Below, one piece after another: positions 1 through 52,794 of a stretch of DNA of 64,000 nucleotides (positions are counted from its first letter, which is position 1; each line of letters opens with the position of its first letter). This DNA comes from Streptococcus gwangjuense (lineage in GTDB: Bacteria > Bacillota > Bacilli > Lactobacillales > Streptococcaceae), in the NCBI RefSeq assembly GCF_003627155.1, contig NZ_CP032621.1, positions 248,001 through 312,000 of the forward strand, in the 5' to 3' direction. The position numbers and the translations under genes were made by a program. The notes beneath the pieces are model-generated. The model saw nothing but the letters and a program-made list of their open reading frames with translations, was not told the origin of the DNA and did no database searches.

Positions 1-1
1 T

Positions 2-436
2 CTAGTAGATAACAACTTTGTTGAAGCAGTGATTTCCCTTCCAGACAATCTCTTCTTTGGAACTTCTATCGCAACGACTATCTTGGTTTTGGCAAAAAAT
101 AAACTAGAGAACAAAACGCTCTTTATCGATGCGAGTAAGGAATTCAAAAAAGAGACTAACAACAATGTTTTGACGGGTAGCAATATCGAACATATAGTTG
201 AATTATTCTCTAATTATCAAAATGTTGACTATAAATCTGCTCTTGTTGATAATGATGTGATTGGTTCAGAGCAGAATTATAACCTATCTGTTTCAACCTA
301 TGTCGAACAAGAAGATACACGTGAGAAGATTGATATTGATGTGCTTAATAAAGAAATAGCTGAGACCGTTACTAAGATTGACCACTTGCGTGCAGAGATA
401 GATAAGATTGTCGAGGAGCTGAGCTATGGCAAATGA
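2..436 (+). CDS. hsdM: Type I restriction-modification DNA methyltransferase HsdM, C-terminal part (5' end outside window)
   Basis: The reading frame is open from the window edge, so the start lies upstream. The visible part begins LVDNNFVEAVISLPDNLFFG and contains SIATTILVLAKNK, the typical end of the N6-adenine methyltransferase domain of type I HsdM (the region after the NPPY catalytic motif, which is off-window). The last ~45 residues are charged and heptad-like, the C-terminal helical tail that in the family packs on HsdS. HsdM with HsdS methylates adenines in a bipartite site and, with HsdR, forms the restriction complex. Its stop overlaps the next start by 11 bases. The partners hsdS and hsdR follow at 1755 and 3539, interrupted by two accessory genes. 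Identification is firm; the catalytic residues cannot be checked here. Confidence 0.9.
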   Translation, partial: LVDNNFVEAVISLPDNLFFGTSIATTILVLAKNKLENKTLFIDASKEFKKETNNNVLTGSNIEHIVELFSNYQNVDYKSALVDNDVIGSEQNYNLSVSTYVEQEDTREKIDIDVLNKEIAETVTKIDHLRAEIDKIVEELSYGK

Positions 437-798
437 TGTGATTCTCTATCGAACAGATGATGGTGAGTCAGCTATTGAACTCCACTTGGATAATGGAACG
501 GTTTGGCTGACTCAACAAGAACTAGCTGAGCTCTTTCAAACTTCCAAGCAAAATATTAGTAAACATATTAAGGCTATTTTTGAAGATGGTGAGTTGGATG
601 AAGCAGTGGTTGTCAACTATCAGTTGACAACCACTGCTTCATGGTGCAATGGCTGGTAAAACTCAGTCAAAAAAAGTCGCCTACTATAATCTCGATATGA
701 TTTTAGCGATTGGCTACCGTGTATACTATATTGAAAATATTGAAAATAATTCCAAAAATAGTAAAAAATCCTTGAATTATCTGTTAAAAACGGTATAA
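426..798 (+). pseudogene. RhuM-like DNA-binding protein, frameshifted and truncated
   Basis: From ATG 426 the first ~70 residues match the N-terminus of the RhuM family, including WLTQQELAELFQTSKQNISK, a helix-turn-helix-like segment. The frame runs into a stop at 657-659, but the next frame continues the family sequence from about 637 (HGAMAGKTQSKKVAYYNLDM then ILAIGYRV, ending near 723), so a frameshift lies close to 637. After GYRV the family similarity stops and the frame ends at 796-798 with AT-rich, unrelated residues. The gene is therefore both frameshifted and cut off early. The frameshift coincides with a perfect 21-bp inverted repeat (598-642). Intact rhuM-like genes are often found inside type I restriction loci; their role is not established. 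It overlaps hsdM by 11 bases, so it was probably once translationally coupled. Confidence 0.75.
598..642. repeat. Perfect 21-bp inverted repeat with a 3-base loop inside the rhuM relic
   Basis: Bases 598-618 are the exact reverse complement of 622-642 (arm starts ATGAAGCAGTGGTTGTCAAC), with loop 619-621. It lies in coding sequence, has no T-tract and sits at the point where the rhuM frame is lost. It looks like a palindrome completed by template switching rather than a regulatory hairpin; that reading is inference. Confidence 0.85.
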
Positions 799-799
799 T
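772..799 (+). promoter_or_regulatory. Promoter for the Abi_2 gene
   Basis: TTGAAT at 772-777 and TATAAT at 794-799 are separated by 16 bases and lie 68 bases before the Abi gene start. The promoter is just downstream of the rhuM relic, so the Abi gene and possibly hsdS-hsdR can be transcribed independently of hsdM. Confidence 0.6.
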
Positions 800-867
800 A
801 GAATTAATAGGACCGCCCACCTCTCTTTGATGTGACAAGGCGGACATTTTTTTATACGGAAGTTACT

Positions 868-1743
868 ATGAAAATTAAAGAATTTAAAACTTGGGATGAG
901 CAGGTGGCCAAATTAATTGAGCACGGATGTAAAGATATCAAATCAAATGAGTATGCGATTGATATTTTACAAAAGGTTAATTATTATCGGCTAACTGCTT
1001 ATTTTTTACCTTTTCGTGACAAAGAGACGCAGAAGTATGATTCCAGCAAGGTTTCTTTGGAGAAAATTTATGGAATTGCTTGTTTTGATTCAGAGTTACG
1101 TTTGCTTATTTTCAAGTATTTAGAGGACATTGAGTTGTATTTTAGGACTCAAGTCGCCTATCATCATGGAAATAAATACGGAGCTTTAGCTTATAAAGAA
1201 GCGACTGCTTTTAATAAATTTCATAAACATAATGAATTTTTAGGAAATGTTGAAAAGGAGTTGGAACATAGGAAGAAAAGCCCTATTTATAAGCATCACC
1301 ACCGAAAATATGATGGAGAATTTCCTATCTGGGTTTTAGTAGAATTTTTTACTTTTGGAATGACTTCGAAATTTTTTGCAGATTCTCCGATAGATATCCA
1401 GAAAGATATTGCTAAAAATGTTGGTATAAAGTCTACTCAAGTTAGAACCTATCTAGAAGTTGCAGTGGTTCTAAGAAATTACTGTGCCCACTATAATCGT
1501 TTATATTATACAAGCTTCACAAAGGTCCCTGGTCAACTCCCTACTTTCATGAACGAAAATAGTAAATTGAAAAATAGACTAATGGCACAACTTTATGCGG
1601 TTAAAAGCCTCCATCCTGATAAGAAAAAATGGAATGAAGGATTTCTAGGTGAATTGTCAGCACTCATTAAACGTTATCAAGCAGTAATTCATCTGCATCA
1701 TATTGGATTTGTAGAGGAGTGGGAAAAAGTACTAAAGAAATGA
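868..1743 (+). CDS. Abi_2 family abortive-infection protein with HEPN RNase motif
   Basis: This 291-residue protein matches the Abi_2 (AbiD/AbiF-type) family: an early NYYRLTAYFLPF motif, a middle ELRLLIFKYLEDIELYFRT segment and a C-terminal RNYCAHYNRLY. The last contains the HEPN signature R-x4-H (R203 and H208), the catalytic pair of HEPN ribonucleases, so it is predicted to abort phage infection by cutting RNA, possibly tRNA. I take ATG 868 as the start because GGAAG precedes it by a suitable distance and the family begins here; an in-frame GTG/TTG extension to 832 has no such support. It has its own promoter (772-799). It lies between hsdM and hsdS, where accessory defence genes are known to insert. 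Its stop is 11 bases before the hsdS start, whose ribosome site overlaps the end of this gene. The family call is firm, the biochemical role inferred. Confidence 0.85.
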   Translation: MKIKEFKTWDEQVAKLIEHGCKDIKSNEYAIDILQKVNYYRLTAYFLPFRDKETQKYDSSKVSLEKIYGIACFDSELRLLIFKYLEDIELYFRTQVAYHHGNKYGALAYKEATAFNKFHKHNEFLGNVEKELEHRKKSPIYKHHHRKYDGEFPIWVLVEFFTFGMTSKFFADSPIDIQKDIAKNVGIKSTQVRTYLEVAVVLRNYCAHYNRLYYTSFTKVPGQLPTFMNENSKLKNRLMAQLYAVKSLHPDKKKWNEGFLGELSALIKRYQAVIHLHHIGFVEEWEKVLKK

Positions 1744-1754
1744 GGAAGTATAAT

Positions 1755-3482
1755 ATGAACATCCTAGAGGAAATCCAAAACTGTCCTGTTGAGTGGAAAG
1801 ATTTAGGGGAAGTGGTATTTCTAAAACGTGGAAAAACAATTACCTCTAAAACAGCTACTGATGGACCTTATCCAGTTATTTCTGGAGGTCAGAAGCCTGC
1901 ATACTTCCATGGAGACTTTAACAGAGAAGGTGAAACAATAACTGTTGCAGGTAGTGGTGCATATGCAGGTTTTGTGATGTATTGGAATGAACCGATATTT
2001 GTATCAGATGCTTTTTCTATTAAACCATTTGATAAAATGTTAAGTACAAAGTATTTATACCATTATCTCCTTGAAAAACAAGGAATACTTTTTAGTCTAA
2101 AAAAAGGATCAGGAGTACCACACGTGTATCCTAAGGATGTTTCAAGAATTTCCATCCCTATTCCTCCGTTAGAAATTCAAGAAAAAATCGTGCAAAAACT
2201 TGACAAAATGACTGAGTATGTTACAGAATTGACCTCAGAATTGACCTCAGAATTGACCTCACGTAAAAAGCAATATTCTTATTATCGAGATAAACTCTTA
2301 TCCTTTGAGGATGAAGTTTATCAGGTTGAGTGGAAGATGTTAAGTGAGTGTCTAAAAAAAGGAAAAGGGACTAAAATTACAGCTGGTCAGATGAAACTAC
2401 TTCACAAAGATGGTGCACCAATCCGTATCTTCGCAGGAGGAAAGACTTACGCTGATGTGAACTATGGAGATATTCCTGATAAAGATATTCATACTGAAGA
2501 AGCAATTATTGTAAAATCTCGCGGGATTATTGATTTTGAATATTGTACAAAACCATTTAGTTTTAAAAATGAATTTTGGTCATACAGTTCAGACAATGAA
2601 AATATCAATTTAAGATATATTTATCATTACTTAGTTCATAATAAAGAACATTTTCAAAACATCGCTAATAATATGCAGATGCCACAAATTTCTAGTAATG
2701 ATACTGAAAAATTCAAAATCCCAGTCCCTTCTCTCGAAATCCAGTCTCGTATTGTTCAAGTTCTGGACAATTTTGACAAGGTTTGTAATGCCCTCAACAT
2801 CGGACTGCCCAAAGAGATTGAACTTCGACAAAAACAGTATGAATATTTTAGAGAAAAACTCTTGACATTCGTCGCCGAAGGCGAGTACACTGAGAGTAGA
2901 GTAGAGGAGTGGGACAACTCCGCTATTATCAAGCTTTTACAGTGGGTATTTGGGCCAATTCGAGTGAAGGTGGGACAAGTTGTCAATTTGCAACGTGGGA
3001 AACGACTTGTTAGAAAGCAACTAACTACTTCAGGAAGTGTTCCAGTTTATCAAAATAGTTTGGCCCCCTTAGGATATTATACCGAATCAAACAGAGTGAA
3101 AAATACTAGCTTTGTAATTTGTGCAGGGGCGGCTGGTGAAATTGGGTATAGCACTGTGGACTTTTGGGCAGCAGATGATGTCTACACGTTAGAGACGTCA
3201 GATAATATTTCTGATAAATTTATGTACTATGTCTTGTTAAGTAAGCAAGATAGACTCAAATCACAGGTTCGAAAGGCTAGTATTCCTAGATTGTCTAAGG
3301 ATATTATTGATAAAGTAACGTTCTACTTACCATCTCTTACTGAACAAGTAAGAATCGTCTCTACCCTTGACAATTTCAATACTTTAACCAACTCTCTTTC
3401 TGAGGGCCTTCCAAAAGAAATCGAACTAAGACAGAAACAGTATGAATACTGGAGAGAACAATTATTAAACTTTACTAGATAA
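1755..3482 (+). CDS. hsdS: Type I restriction specificity subunit HsdS with three target-recognition domains
   Basis: At 575 residues this is longer than the usual two-domain HsdS (~380-420). Three recognition-domain-like units can be read: about 1-150 (VEWKDLGEVVFLKRGKTI to ISIPIPPLEIQEKIV), 190-345 (VEWKMLSECLKKG to FKIPVPSLEIQSRIV) and 403-545 (VKVGQVVNLQRGKRL to VTFYLPSLTEQVRIV). Each is followed by a conserved helix: RKKQYSYYRDKLLSF, RQKQYEYFREKLLTF and RQKQYEYWREQLLNF. The first helix carries three tandem TSEL-type units (residues 158-169). HsdS positions two HsdM subunits on a bipartite DNA site; how a third domain would be used is unclear. I start at ATG 1755 (preceded by GAGGAAG) rather than the GTG at 1719 that overlaps the Abi gene. 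A fusion or duplication of half a second hsdS is the simplest origin. hsdR follows after 56 bases. Confidence 0.88.
   Translation: MNILEEIQNCPVEWKDLGEVVFLKRGKTITSKTATDGPYPVISGGQKPAYFHGDFNREGETITVAGSGAYAGFVMYWNEPIFVSDAFSIKPFDKMLSTKYLYHYLLEKQGILFSLKKGSGVPHVYPKDVSRISIPIPPLEIQEKIVQKLDKMTEYVTELTSELTSELTSRKKQYSYYRDKLLSFEDEVYQVEWKMLSECLKKGKGTKITAGQMKLLHKDGAPIRIFAGGKTYADVNYGDIPDKDIHTEEAIIVKSRGIIDFEYCTKPFSFKNEFWSYSSDNENINLRYIYHYLVHNKEHFQNIANNMQMPQISSNDTEKFKIPVPSLEIQSRIVQVLDNFDKVCNALNIGLPKEIELRQKQYEYFREKLLTFVAEGEYTESRVEEWDNSAIIKLLQWVFGPIRVKVGQVVNLQRGKRLVRKQLTTSGSVPVYQNSLAPLGYYTESNRVKNTSFVICAGAAGEIGYSTVDFWAADDVYTLETSDNISDKFMYYVLLSKQDRLKSQVRKASIPRLSKDIIDKVTFYLPSLTEQVRIVSTLDNFNTLTNSLSEGLPKEIELRQKQYEYWREQLLNFTR
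2226..2261 (+). repeat. Three tandem 12-bp repeats (GAATTGACCTCA) in hsdS
   Basis: Three perfect copies of GAATTGACCTCA start at 2226, 2238 and 2250 and encode ELTS-ELTS-ELTS in the helix between the first and second recognition domains. In EcoR124I/II a 12-bp repeat encoding TAEL at the same place changes the spacer length of the DNA target when its copy number changes. By analogy this tract can alter specificity by slippage without breaking the frame. Confidence 0.85.
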
Positions 3483-3538
3483 ATTCTTTAATCATTTTGA
3501 GATAGAATCTCAATTAAAATAAAAAAAGGAAGCATGCA

Positions 3539-6500
3539 ATGGTTGATTATTCAAAAGTACATGAAGTAATTGCGGAAACAAATGAAGGGATTCTCTTGGC
3601 TGAGTATCAACCAGAGTATCGCACAGATAGAGAATTTCAGTCTGAGGCAGATTTGGAAAGACAATTGCTTATGGATTTAGTCAATGGTCTCAATTATGAA
3701 CGATTGGATATCCATACACCTGCGGAGCTTTTAGCAAATGCAAAGGTCCAAATTGAAAAGCTTAATAAGGTGATCTTTACGAATGCTGAATGGCAACGTT
3801 TTGTAGTCGAGTATTTAGACTGTCCCAATGAAGGTTTGGTTGAAAAAACACGAAAAATCCAAGAAAATCATATCTATGACTTTGTTTTTGATGATGGACG
3901 GATTAAAAACATTTTTATCCTTGACAAGAAAAACATTCACAACAACAGTATGCAGGTCATCAACCAAGTGACGCAAGTGGGGAGTCATACCAACCGTTAT
4001 GATGTGACCATTTTAGTCAATGGTCTTCCGCTAGTTCAGATTGAATTGAAGAAGCGTGGGGTTAGTCTACAAGAAGCCTTTAATCAGGTTCACCGTTATA
4101 GTAAGGAAAGCTTTAACAGCGAAAATTCTTTGTATAAGTATGTTCAGATTTTTGTGATTTCGAATGGCACTTATACACGCTACTTTGCAAATACGACAGC
4201 TCAAAATAAAAATCACTATGAGTTTACCTGTGAGTGGGCAGACCGTAAGAATAAGACTATTCACGAATTGGAAGATTTTACTGTTACTTTCTTAAGCAAG
4301 CGTGTCCTCTTGGAAGTTTTGACCAAGTATTGTGTTTTTGATGTGGACAATACCTTGCTCATCATGCGCCCTTATCAGATAGCAGCTACCGAGAGTATTT
4401 TGAGAAAAATTCATTCCTCTAATGAGATGAAGAATTTTGGAACAATCAATGCTTGTGGCTATATCTGGCATACAACAGGGTCAGGGAAAACCTTGACCAG
4501 CTTTAAGACTGCACGCTTAGCGACAGAGTTGGACTATATTGACAAAGTGATATTCGTTGTAGATAGAAAAGACATAGACTATCAAACTATGAAGGAATAT
4601 CAAAAATTCCAACCAAATTCAGTCAATGGTAGTAACAATACAAAAGAACTACAACGCAGTATCGAAGAAAATGATGATCGAATCGTTGTCACAACTATTC
4701 AAAAATTAAATAAGTTTATCACTGCGAATCCTAATCATGAAGTCTATGCTAAGAAATGTGTCTTGATTTTTGACGAGTGTCATCGTTCTCAGTTTGGGAA
4801 GGCTCAAAAGCGCATTAAGAAGGCTTTTAAACAGTACGCTCTATTTGGTTTTACAGGGACACCGATTTTCCCAGAAAATAGTTTAACGGGAGAAACAACT
4901 CAAGAAGTTTTTGGGGAGCAACTTCATAACTATGTTATCACGGATGCTATTCGAGATAAAAAAGTCTTGAAGTTCAAGGTTGATTACAACTATATCAAGC
5001 CTGAAATCAATAAGTATAGAGAAGCTGAAAAAGCAGTTGGCCGAGAGATTGATGAGAAGAAACTCAAAAAGATGGAGAAGGAGCTACTTCTACATCCAGA
5101 ACGGATAGCAACCATCACAGAGTACCTGTTGAGAGTGTATAATACAAAAACACACCGAAATCAACACTATACTCATAAACAAAAACAATTGTCTGGATTT
5201 AATGCTATGCTGGCTGTACAAAGTATTGAAGCAGCAAAATTATACTATGAAGAACTCCAACGACAGCAAGCAGCTTTACCAGAGGCTAAGCGTTTGAAAG
5301 TTGCGACTATTTTTAGCTTTGCGCCTAACGAAGAACAGTCAGCTTATGGAGAAATTCAAGATGAAGAGCTAGAACCTCAAGATACAGCCATGCCTCTAAC
5401 TTCTAAAGAGTTTCTTTCTAGAGCAATTGATGATTATAATCACATGTTTAAGACCAACTTCTCAGCTGATGGGAAGGAGTTTCAAAATTACTATCGTGAC
5501 CTTTCCAAACGCGTTAAATCCAAGGAAGTGGATTTGCTGATTGTGGTCGGTATGTTCTTAACGGGATTTGATGCCCCGACTATGAATACACTCTTTGTCG
5601 ATAAAAATCTACGTTATCATGGTTTGATTCAGGCCTTCTCGAGAACCAATCGGATTTTTAACAAGGTTAAACCTTTTGGAAATATTGTTTGTTTCCGTGA
5701 TTTAGAAAAGGCTACGCAGGAAGCTATTAAGACTTTTGGAGACACCAACAAGCTTGAAATCATCTTAGAAAAAAGCTTTAGTGAATATATGGATGGTTTC
5801 GTTGACCAAGTAACGGGTATCGAGGTCAAAGGCTATACTGCAGTTTGTCAGGAAATTCTGGAAAGATTCCCGAATCCGCAAGAAATTGAAACAGAGCATG
5901 ATAAGAAGGAGTTTGTTAAGTTATTTGGTGAGTTGTTGAAGCTTGATAATGTCCTTCGAAATTATGATGAGTTTCAAGAAATCGACAAACCTATTTCAGA
6001 AGGTTATCTTCAGGATTTAAGAAGCACTTATGTGGAAATTCGAGATGAATTTTTGAACCTTAAAAATTATGAAAAGGCCAAGGACTTGGATATTGATCTT
6101 TCAGATGTCGAATTTGAGATTGAACTCCTAAAAACAGATGAGATTAACCTGGACTACATTCTTGCATTGATTGTTGAAAAATCGAAGAATTCTGAGTCTA
6201 AAGAAGTAATGAAAGCAGAAGTTAGTCGTGTGATTCGCTCTAGCATTGATATCCGTGCTAAAGAAGAGTTGGTTATTGGATTTATCAATGACACTGATTT
6301 GCAAAAATTGAAAGACCATGATGGGATTATTAATGCTTTCTATGAATATGGCAAAGAGCGCAAGAAAATTGCGATTCACGACCTAGCTGAGGCTGAGAAA
6401 CTTGTAGCTGATTATCAATTATTCATAGACAAATCAATTCAACGAGGTTATGCTGAAAATAGTGGGACTGATTTGGATTCGATTATTCCACCAACTTCTC

Positions 6501-6583
6501 GTAGACAAGGAGCGCGTGAACGGAAAAAGCAAGAAGTTTTACGTAAGATTCAGTTGTTAGTAGAGACTTATTCAGGTATTTAA
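3539..6583 (+). CDS. hsdR: Type I restriction endonuclease subunit HsdR
   Basis: The 1014-residue product has the usual length and domain order. An N-terminal nuclease domain contains FILDKKN (~131) and the acidic/lysine motif VQIELKKRG (~166). A superfamily 2 translocase follows with Walker A TTGSGKT (~310), DECH (~411), FTGTP (~440) and QAFSRTNRI (~697), then a helical C-terminus that docks on the methylase core. It pumps unmethylated DNA and cuts at a distance. AAAGGAAG precedes ATG 3539. All key motifs are present, so restriction should work if hsdM is intact upstream. It is the last gene of the island; an AT-rich 134-base gap with the direct repeat ATTCGCTCAT follows. Confidence 0.97.
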   Translation: MVDYSKVHEVIAETNEGILLAEYQPEYRTDREFQSEADLERQLLMDLVNGLNYERLDIHTPAELLANAKVQIEKLNKVIFTNAEWQRFVVEYLDCPNEGLVEKTRKIQENHIYDFVFDDGRIKNIFILDKKNIHNNSMQVINQVTQVGSHTNRYDVTILVNGLPLVQIELKKRGVSLQEAFNQVHRYSKESFNSENSLYKYVQIFVISNGTYTRYFANTTAQNKNHYEFTCEWADRKNKTIHELEDFTVTFLSKRVLLEVLTKYCVFDVDNTLLIMRPYQIAATESILRKIHSSNEMKNFGTINACGYIWHTTGSGKTLTSFKTARLATELDYIDKVIFVVDRKDIDYQTMKEYQKFQPNSVNGSNNTKELQRSIEENDDRIVVTTIQKLNKFITANPNHEVYAKKCVLIFDECHRSQFGKAQKRIKKAFKQYALFGFTGTPIFPENSLTGETTQEVFGEQLHNYVITDAIRDKKVLKFKVDYNYIKPEINKYREAEKAVGREIDEKKLKKMEKELLLHPERIATITEYLLRVYNTKTHRNQHYTHKQKQLSGFNAMLAVQSIEAAKLYYEELQRQQAALPEAKRLKVATIFSFAPNEEQSAYGEIQDEELEPQDTAMPLTSKEFLSRAIDDYNHMFKTNFSADGKEFQNYYRDLSKRVKSKEVDLLIVVGMFLTGFDAPTMNTLFVDKNLRYHGLIQAFSRTNRIFNKVKPFGNIVCFRDLEKATQEAIKTFGDTNKLEIILEKSFSEYMDGFVDQVTGIEVKGYTAVCQEILERFPNPQEIETEHDKKEFVKLFGELLKLDNVLRNYDEFQEIDKPISEGYLQDLRSTYVEIRDEFLNLKNYEKAKDLDIDLSDVEFEIELLKTDEINLDYILALIVEKSKNSESKEVMKAEVSRVIRSSIDIRAKEELVIGFINDTDLQKLKDHDGIINAFYEYGKERKKIAIHDLAEAEKLVADYQLFIDKSIQRGYAENSGTDLDSIIPPTSRRQGARERKKQEVLRKIQLLVETYSGI

Positions 6584-6717
6584 GGATTGTTGACTAATAT
6601 TTATTAGAAAAATCAGGCTCTACAAAAAATACTATTTATTCGCTCATAATTCGCTCATTTTTAAGATATAACTTTGTTTCCTTATTTCCGGGGAACTAGT
6701 AGAAAGTAAGGAGAAAT

Positions 6718-50850: not shown

Positions 50851-52794
50851 TTATTTCTCAACTCGTGATTTGTTGGCGATATCAGCTAGGATAGCTTGAA
50901 CAAAGTCATCAACTGAGACAGTTTGTGTTTCTTTTTGGCCGTAGCGGCGAACATTGACTGTTCCGTCTTCCATTTCCTTGTCCCCAACAATCAATTGGTA
51001 AGGAATCTTGCTGGTTTGTGAAGCACGGATCTTGAACTGCATTTTTTCATTGCGCTCATCCACATCAGCACGGACCCCACGGTCACGGAGTTTCTTAGCT
51101 ACTTCCCAAGCGTAGTCTACGTGTTTTTCGTTAGATACTGGGATGAGGGTTACTTGGTGTGGTGCAAGCCATGTTGGGAAGGCACCCTTGTAGTTCTCAA
51201 TCAAGATCGCTGTGAAGCGTTCCATAGTTGAGATAACCCCACGGTGGATCATAACTGGACGGTGCTCTTCACCATCAGCTCCGATGTATTTGAGGTCGAA
51301 GCGTTCTGGAAGCAAGAAGTCAAGCTGGATAGTAGAAAGTGTTTCTTCTTTACCAAGGGCAGTTTTAACCTGGATATCCAATTTTGGTCCGTAGAAGGCT
51401 GCTTCGCCTTCGGCTTCAAAGTAGTCCACACCCATTTCATCAAGAGCTGCACGAAGCATAGTTTGGGCATTTTCCCACATCTCATCGTTGTCAAAGTACT
51501 TGTGAGTATCTTGAGGGTCGCGAAGAGAGAGGCGGAAGCGGTATTCAGTCAAGTTGAAGTCTTCATAAACATCGATAATCAACTGAAGAGCACGTTGGAA
51601 TTCTTCTTGAATTTGTTCTGGAGTCACAAAGAGGTGACCGTCGTTGAGGGACATTTCACGTACACGTTGAAGACCAGTCAGGGCACCAGATTTTTCATAA
51701 CGGTGCATCATACCGATTTCGGCGATACGGATTGGCAATTCACGGTAAGAGTGAACATGGTGTTTGAAGACTTGGATGTGGTGTGGGCAGTTCATTGGAC
51801 GAAGGACAAATTCTTCCCCGTCACCCATATCCATAGTTGGGAACATGTCTTCTTGATAATGATCCCAGTGACCAGAAGTCTTGTAAAGTTCAACAGAAGC
51901 AAGTGGTGGAGTGTAAACGTGTTGGTAGCCAGAAGTCAACTCCTTGTCGACAATGTAGCGTTCCAATTCACGACGGATAGTCGCACCATTTGGCAACCAG
52001 AATGGAAGTCCTTGACCAACCTCTTGTGAAATCATGAAGAGGTCAAGCTCTTTACCAAGTTTACGGTGGTCACGTTCTTTGGCTTCTTCACGCATTTGGA
52101 GGTAGTTTTTCAAGTCTTTCTTGTCAAACCAAGCTGTACCGTAGATACGTTGCATCATAGCGTTGTCGCTATTTCCACGCCAGTAAGCACCGGCTACATG
52201 GAGAAGGTGGAAGATTTGGATGCGGCCTGTTGATGGGACGTGAGGGCCACGGCAAAGGTCTACATATTCACCCTGACGATAGATAGTCAAACCACCTTCG
52301 TCTTCAGAGTGTTCTTCAATCAATTCCAACTTGTAAGGGTCATTTTTGAAGATTTCACGGGCTTCATCTTTGGTCACTTCTTCACGAATAGATGGGAAGT
52401 TTTCTTTGACGATTTTTTGCATTTCTTCTTCGATACGAGGAAGGTCTTCGTTAGAGATTTGACCAGCTGTGTTGTCAGTATCGTAGTAGAAACCATCTTC
52501 GATGGCTGGACCAACTCCCAAGTGAATGTCTGGGAACAGACGACGAGCTGCTTGGGCGAACAAGTGAGCGGCTGAGTGACGCAAGATTGGAAGGGCATCT
52601 TCGTGATCAGGTGTCACAATTTCGATGCTTCCATCTTCAGTGATAGCACGAGTAGTGTCGATAAGTTTGCCGTTGAATTTACCAGCCAAGGCCTTTTTAG
52701 CTAGGGAATTGCTGATAGATTGGGCAATTTCAAAAGTAGTAACGCCAGATTCGAATTCACGAACAGCGCCATCTGGGAAAGTAATGTTAATCAT
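50851..52794 (-). CDS. thrS: Threonyl-tRNA synthetase
   Basis: The 647-residue class II synthetase has an N-terminal TGS domain ([18 protein letters not shown]), an editing domain with [17 protein letters not shown], HxxxH motifs and the Cys in YVDLCRGPH, a catalytic core with [10 protein letters not shown] and the motif 2/3 segments [12 protein letters not shown] and [13 protein letters not shown], and a C-terminal anticodon-binding domain. The real start is MINITF at 52794 after AGGAGAAC; the open frame to 52926 is T-box leader. It is regulated by a T-box with a terminator. It sits next to the TCS01-like locus as in pneumococcus. Confidence 0.98.

Follow-up and report, generated by a model that had tools for sequence, protein, structure and literature searches.

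A three-domain HsdS and a frame-setting repeat at a type IC restriction-modification locus of Streptococcus gwangjuense

The type IC locus of Streptococcus gwangjuense

The DNA analyzed here, referred to as the window, is a stretch of 64,000 nucleotides from Streptococcus gwangjuense, whose genome is a single contig (NZ_CP032621.1) of 1,972,481 bases, and it starts at contig position 248,001. At its start lies a complete type IC restriction-modification locus, hsdM-hsdS-hsdR (L034), in which all three genes are intact. Its hsdS gene (1755..3482) is an uninterrupted open frame of 575 amino acids that carries three target recognition domains (TRDs), and a short tandem repeat is located at the seam between the second and the third unit. 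Coordinates are window positions on the plus strand unless stated otherwise. The 3' end of hsdM occupies 1..436 and has a PF02384 match on the part within the window. The full hsdM is an open frame of 528 amino acids that starts before the window (contig 246850-248433; L034:2350-3933), matches TIGR00497 with 674 bits and contains the motifs DPTCGSG and NPPY. The hsdR gene (3539..6583) encodes 1014 amino acids with matches to PF04313, PF18766, PF22679, PF12008 and TIGR00348, of which PF12008 (EcoR124_C) points to an EcoR124-type subunit with the corresponding C-terminal domain. Among solved structures, the HsdS is closest in sequence to that of EcoR124II (7bst, E 2.8e-34). Judged by these resemblances, the locus belongs to the type IC restriction-modification systems. 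Promoter and terminator scans gave values close to those of shuffled sequence.

Three units in one HsdS

The sole Pfam family in the HsdS is Methylase_S (PF01420), which is present in three stretches, and the motifs RKKQY, RQKQY and RQKQY follow units 1, 2 and 3, respectively. This agrees with a preliminary description of this DNA, made from the sequence alone, in which three TRD-like units, each followed by a conserved helix, had been noticed. When the whole genome was searched, PF01420 matched at 1788-2258, 2430-2822 and 2964-3425, within one open frame of 603 amino acids, and no further match was present elsewhere in the genome at E 0.001. An NCBIfam search of the HsdS gave below-cut-off matches only.

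The borders of the units were placed using the PF01420 matches and two structure models, one of the full protein and one of units 1-2 alone. TRD1 (residues ~12-138; 1788..2168) is supported by the first match and by the modeled secondary structure, and it is followed by the first conserved helix, CR1 (residues 139-183; 2169..2303), which is a helix in both models. The first linker contains a 12-bp tandem repeat of 3.2 copies (the TSEL repeat; 2224..2261), situated at the place of the EcoR124 TAEL repeat in the alignment with EcoR124II; a 12-bp run, 24-48 bp long, is present in 41 of the 46 related loci described below. TRD2 (residues ~190-326; 2322..2732), which is supported by the second PF01420 match, is mostly well formed in the model of units 1-2 alone, and this model also delimits the second conserved helix, CR2 (residues 327-371; 2733..2867). 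The part beyond the seam starts with a linker and a short helix, EWDNSAIIKLLQWVFG (2907..2954; model helix 388-399), which is found in fused as well as split loci. It continues with TRD3 (residues ~401-527; 2955..3335), which is supported by the third match and the full model, with a predicted local distance difference test (pLDDT) score of 72-84 throughout the block except for 59 at residues 451-460. The full model also supports the third conserved helix, CR3 (residues 528-570; 3336..3464).

The similarity of the DNA around the second and third helix, which had been pointed out previously, is confirmed: 2802-2863, in CR2, and 3405-3466, at CR3, are 77% identical over 62 nt, with a third copy at 2238-2299 (61%). 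This helix part is the sole long DNA repeat common to units 2 and 3, and TRD2 and TRD3 are not identical duplicates.

The third unit in related streptococci

Relatives of this hsdS were found in 51 of 284 genomes of the genus, and one locus was fetched from each of 46. The genomes G018, G055, G060, G088 and G272 were left out for short or weak matches, as were second, weak places in G122 and G245. The usual order is hsdM, often other genes, an hsdS of ~370-470 codons, a half-hsdS (half-S) of 195-253 codons and hsdR. The half-S frame matches residues 381-575 of the window protein. The junction between the two parts is present in 42 of the 46 loci, split in 26 and fused in frame in 16. Three units in one frame, the layout that the preliminary description had suggested seeking in relatives, were found in 13 of these fused loci (L034-L039, L044, L047-L050, L055 and L059). 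In the other three (L046, L073 and L078) the parts are joined at the seam, but the first part is short, separate or N-interrupted. The four loci lacking the junction comprise L058 and L065, which have neither half-S nor repeat, L076, which is cut at a contig end, and L077, a 1236-amino-acid frame of another kind. Two further observations concern hsdS itself: another gene adjoins it in L058 and L065, and in L073, L074 and L079 its frame is also interrupted between units 1 and 2.

From this comparison, the third unit is a half-hsdS that usually lies separately and directly downstream of a two-TRD hsdS, and no stray duplication. The earlier suggestion that a two-TRD HsdS had gained a third half is upheld. 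The third half corresponds to the downstream half-S frame at the same locus in most relatives, so that it need not derive from another locus. Two trivial explanations for the layout were rejected. A sequencing or assembly error hiding a stop or frameshift between units 2 and 3 does not account for it, since five further close loci (L035-L039) show this fusion with an identical 14-bp tract and the genome of the window is a single contig. Unit 3 is also not a common linker; it is complete and forms a separate reading frame in 26 of the 42 related loci with a junction.

A frame-setting repeat at the seam

The preliminary description mentioned neither the 12-bp repeat at 2224-2261 nor a pentanucleotide tract at 2893..2906. 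This tract, (GAGTA)n with the sequence AGAGTAGAGTAGAG, is 14 bp or 2.8 units long and sets the frame between units 2 and 3; the seam of the window reads GAG AGT AGA GTA GAG GAG TGG. Directly upstream lies a short palindromic word, CGCCGAAGGCG (2873..2883), which is kept with few changes in the related loci inspected. The 10-base core, GCCGAAGGCG, occurs twice in the window, the second time at 51405-51414 on the minus strand in a stretch without hsdS resemblance.

A tandem repeat is located exactly at the seam in all 42 junction loci, and its unit is never a multiple of three. The tracts are (GAGTA)n of 14, 19, 24, 29 or 34 bp, and (CAGTA)n of 14, 19, 24 or 36 bp; in L068 the tract is (GGAAC)n and measures 109 bp, and other loci repeat a 7-bp unit (TGGACAG or a shifted form of it) over 16 to 30 bp. 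Runs of period 5 and at least 14 bp number 37 at the 42 seams versus 1 in the rest of the 500,913 bases, and runs of period 7 and at least 16 bp number 5 versus 4.

Across loci, tract length sets the frame between the two-TRD part and the half-S. Within the (GAGTA)n class, all ten loci with 14 bp are fused and all ten with longer tracts are split (six with 19 bp, two with 24 bp and one each with 29 and 34 bp). Within the (CAGTA)n class, nine of ten 14-bp loci are split, the exception being L055, which is fused and has one extra imperfect unit; both 19-bp loci are fused, all three 24-bp loci are split and the single 36-bp locus is fused. In the 7-bp class, tracts of 16, 16 and 30 bp are split and those of 23 and 24 bp are fused. 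The earlier idea that the third half may alter specificity or act in a switch was sound as a possibility, with a 5- or 7-bp repeat setting the state across relatives.

Tract change between species and selection on the half-S

The collections searched hold one genome per species, so that tract lengths are compared between species. L072 and L074 have tracts of 34 and 19 bp, with 150-nt flanks that are 96.7% and 99.3% alike and 3 differences in 194 half-S codons. Similarly, L040 and L070 have tracts of 14 and 24 bp and 150-nt flanks that are 93.3% and 98.0% alike. Judged from these pairs, tract length changes faster between species than its surroundings. Single-linkage clustering at 75% identity placed 31 of the 42 loci in four TRD3 groups and left 11 ungrouped; each group has fused and split members. 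Related loci share descent and exchange domains, and the states within a group are therefore not independent events. TRDs have likely been exchanged between strains in the course of evolution.

Selection on the half-S was estimated from the ratio of nonsynonymous to synonymous substitution rates (dN/dS) in 48 pairs from three TRD3 groups and 18 loci; L038 and the fourth group (12 loci) were excluded. The ratio ranges from 0.03 to 0.27, and for the 15 pairs composed of two split loci it is 0.08-0.22 (for example, 0.10 for L043-L053 and 0.08 for L061-L075). Such values indicate purifying selection on the half-S within the tested groups. No ATG was found upstream of the conserved LLxWVFGPI motif of the half-S in any of the 26 split loci. 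A GTG or TTG lies upstream of or in the motif in 10 of them and in none of the other 16 (counted by eye); in L043, a GTG just after the motif opens a frame of 172 amino acids. Most simply, the half-S would be made mainly as the C-terminal part of the long protein, and loci would not stay split permanently.

Occurrence beyond close relatives

A scan of a species collection for the seam pattern gave 34 records, 26 from streptococci and 8 from others. The streptococci include S. mitis, S. oralis, S. infantis, S. pseudopneumoniae, S. parasanguinis, S. suis, S. gallolyticus and S. sobrinus. None of the 8 non-streptococcal records has an HsdS-like frame of at least 150 amino acids at E 1e-8. Fused frames were observed in S. 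mitis (L085 and L097, the latter cut at its start), S. infantis (L086 and L090), S. pseudopneumoniae (L107) and S. oralis subsp. tigurinus (L109), and split frames in S. mitis (L080) and S. oralis (L091, L094 and L110).

Of 395 genomes sampled from the order, 20 match at E 1e-25; nine of these lie outside the genus, and three of the nine were read by hand. In G422 (L118), PF01420 matches a 654-amino-acid frame three times, and a 4-bp unit repeated over 101 bp separates the second match from the third. In G382 (L114 and L120), a 94-bp tract of a 5-bp unit is in frame and the first unit is shortened. G307 (L115 and L119) carries a two-TRD hsdS and a half-S, split at a 32-bp tract of a 4-bp unit. 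The matched frames of the remaining six genomes are 374-405 amino acids long, which is the size of a two-TRD protein.

Carriage by plasmids or phages was also examined. The junction pattern had no match in viral contigs, and the eight phage records with a match give it in two pieces (seven) or as a single short piece (one). Plasmid records with a match number 1005; in the 15 listed, the matching region measures ~0.9-1.2 kb, which corresponds to a two-TRD gene in size.

A proposed switch and its alternatives

Slippage at the repeat probably toggles the HsdS between two and three TRDs, perhaps with TRD3 taking the place of TRD2 beside TRD1. With the 14-bp tract of the window, both parts form a single frame for a three-TRD protein. 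Many of the other lengths seen in relatives end the reading just after unit 2 and give a two-TRD HsdS, the half-S being out of frame or behind a stop. The length may alter by slipped-strand mispairing during growth, resulting in a population with both forms. The long form would target a different DNA site, perhaps with TRD3 paired with TRD1 and TRD2 set aside, and methylation, together with restriction and perhaps gene expression, would then switch. Direct support covers the anatomy, the junction repeat, the dependence of the frame on tract length across loci and the selection on the half-S.

A wider model may be advanced more tentatively, as a possibility. Changes in tract length would swap one half of the type I target site with no recombination involved, by way of a half-hsdS cassette that lacks an efficient start and lies behind a frame-setting repeat. 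TRD3 would replace TRD2, or the three TRDs would combine in several ways, giving at least two methylation patterns per locus, and the 12-bp linker repeat would add spacing control. The device would recur, with different repeat words, among streptococci and in three or more further genomes from the order.

A somewhat unlikely alternative, which is compatible with the slippage switch, is that the split-state half-S is translated alone from GTG or TTG and acts as a homodimer on a palindromic site or as a partner of the full HsdS, the repeat choosing between two subunits and one fused chain. The purifying selection between split loci and the GTG or TTG codons at or before the motif in 10 of them, or just after it in others such as L043, favor separate translation. 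BlihIA of Bacillus licheniformis likewise has a full and a half HsdS, and its authors speculate on hybrid dimers (PMC12429846; this and the other papers cited by PMC number are cited from part of their text); in addition, TRD3 of Hpy99XV alone modifies a palindromic site (PMC3936762). However, with ATG absent there from all 26 split loci and GTG and TTG absent from 16, the conserved half-S head lies upstream of the possible starts in those 16, as expected if the half-S is mainly read through from hsdS.

It is unlikely that the fusion is fixed and the three-TRD protein simply the HsdS of its lineage, with a tract that varies over evolution and not in a growing population. The tract of the window is just 2.8 units long, all ten 14-bp GAGTA loci are fused, and a six-unit GAGCA tract has been termed highly stable (PMC6265453). 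On the other hand, the tracts of 94-109 bp in L120, L118 and L068 have a length expected to slip, the tracts of L072 and L074 differ by 15 bp versus only 3 substitutions in 194 codons, and the TRD3 groups cross between fused and split states.

It is still less probable that the third unit is functionally inert, a tail or a decoy, and that the HsdS works through TRD1 and TRD2, with TRD3 taking no part in target choice. A model of units 1-2 alone does have the form of a standard HsdS and matches solved HsdS structures better than the full model does. Against this, TRD3 exists as several distinct alleles and shows purifying selection within the tested groups. Structure alignments of the full model reach from unit 1 to unit 3, which argues weakly in the same direction; the structure comparison gave ranges only, without assigning target residues to units.

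The switch by homologous recombination between the repeated helix sequences that had been envisaged for this gene draws on the likeness of the CR2 and CR3 DNA, but 77% over 62 nt is low for such a mechanism, none of the 15 repeat pairs listed for window 1-6700 is an inverted repeat between hsdS parts, the genome has no second hsdS and the state is set by the seam repeat, which makes it very improbable.

If the slippage switch is active, the methylation pattern would change without inversion or a second complete hsdS and, with it, the barrier to foreign DNA and possibly gene expression. For gene callers and methylomes, a normal hsdS with a half-hsdS fragment in streptococci may then be one state of a single switching gene. 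Three-TRD HsdS proteins have so far been unusual cases; here, one is found among natural alleles joined or separated by a short repeat, and the existence of natural alleles of both kinds allows the role of the third TRD to be tested.

Comparison with known systems

The closest precedent for a frame-controlled junction is NgoAV of Neisseria gonorrhoeae, in which a poly-G tract joins hsdS1 and hsdS2, the joined form being active with a new site (PMC9577141), and which yields a truncated or full-length HsdS (PMC7394358). As in NgoAV, whether a second part joins is determined, through the reading frame, by a simple repeat located where one hsdS frame ends. The loci described here share with that kind a repeat at the hsdS join that is not a multiple of three and whose length differs between genomes and sets the product. 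Unlike the homopolymer of NgoAV, repeats of 4, 5 or 7 bp join a full two-TRD HsdS to a half.

A single HsdS chain with three TRDs in a row, each accompanied by a conserved helix, is also known from M.Hpy99XV (JHP1422) of Helicobacter pylori J99, where TRD1+TRD3 and TRD2+TRD3 give two target sites (PMC3936762). TRD2 and TRD3 of JHP1422 are identical, in contrast to the window protein, whose TRD3 differs from TRD2 and matches the downstream half-hsdS frame. A frame-setting repeat is not described for JHP1422 in the cited part of that paper. Furuta et al. (2011) reported a TRD1-TRD2-TRD2 arrangement and a three-TRD gene in a Mycoplasma and ascribed them to recombination (PMC3077401). EcoR124I and EcoR124II resemble the window system in being the closest solved relatives by sequence, in their type of HsdR and in the 12-bp in-frame repeat of the first linker, the TAEL repeat of EcoR124 having a spacer effect (PMC3077401), but EcoR124 HsdS has two TRDs.

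A full and a half HsdS in one operon are found in BlihIA (PMC12429846) and in hsdRSMS of Staphylococcus xylosus, in which the short HsdS is conserved and located before hsdM (PMC10030836); the cited parts of both papers describe no frame-setting repeat. The inverting hsdS loci of streptococci, such as SpnD39III of S. pneumoniae and those of S. suis, are likewise type I systems of switchable specificity (PMC6265453). In the SpnD39III kind, DNA inverts between several hsdS genes, whereas the window genome has one. According to a REBASE survey (Atack et al. 2020, FASEB J, as cited in PMC7394358), 7.9% of hsdS genes have simple repeats, and PMC12429846 cites the same survey for HsdS with three TRDs. 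Three-TRD HsdS, operons with a full and a half HsdS and repeat-driven hsdS switching are thus known separately, and a first description is not claimed. A repeat joining a full hsdS to a half-hsdS was not found described in the literature searched, which was available in part and from which the Atack et al. survey is excepted; the available parts of PMC5149525, PMC4996451, PMC6241649 and PMC13076061 contain nothing on this layout.

Neighboring genes

Between hsdM and hsdS, the window contains a RhuM-like fragment followed by an Abi_2/AbiD gene. The fragment, which we take to be RhuM-like, is a frame at 426-660 that overlaps the end of hsdM and is cut short just after a perfect 21-bp inverted repeat (598-618/622-642). 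Between hsdM and hsdS, 25 of 41 examined loci, including that of the window, have a similar RhuM-like start, which often opens a long frame. The frame at L114:826-2442 (minus strand), from outside the genus, begins as a RhuM-like protein and runs on in frame into the later part of HsdS unit 1. The Abi_2/AbiD-type gene of the window (868-1743; PF07751; AbiD by PADLOC) is a defense-like gene nested in a restriction operon, and Abi_2/AbiD-like genes with the start MKIKEFKTWDEQ occur at the same place in L035, L036, L037 and L039. Three relatives have a gene 405-412 codons long between the S part and hsdR (L050:6797-8035; L043:3679-4917, minus strand; L058:6130-7347); it carries an ATP-binding motif close to the start, and its product may resemble PrrC/RloC-like proteins.
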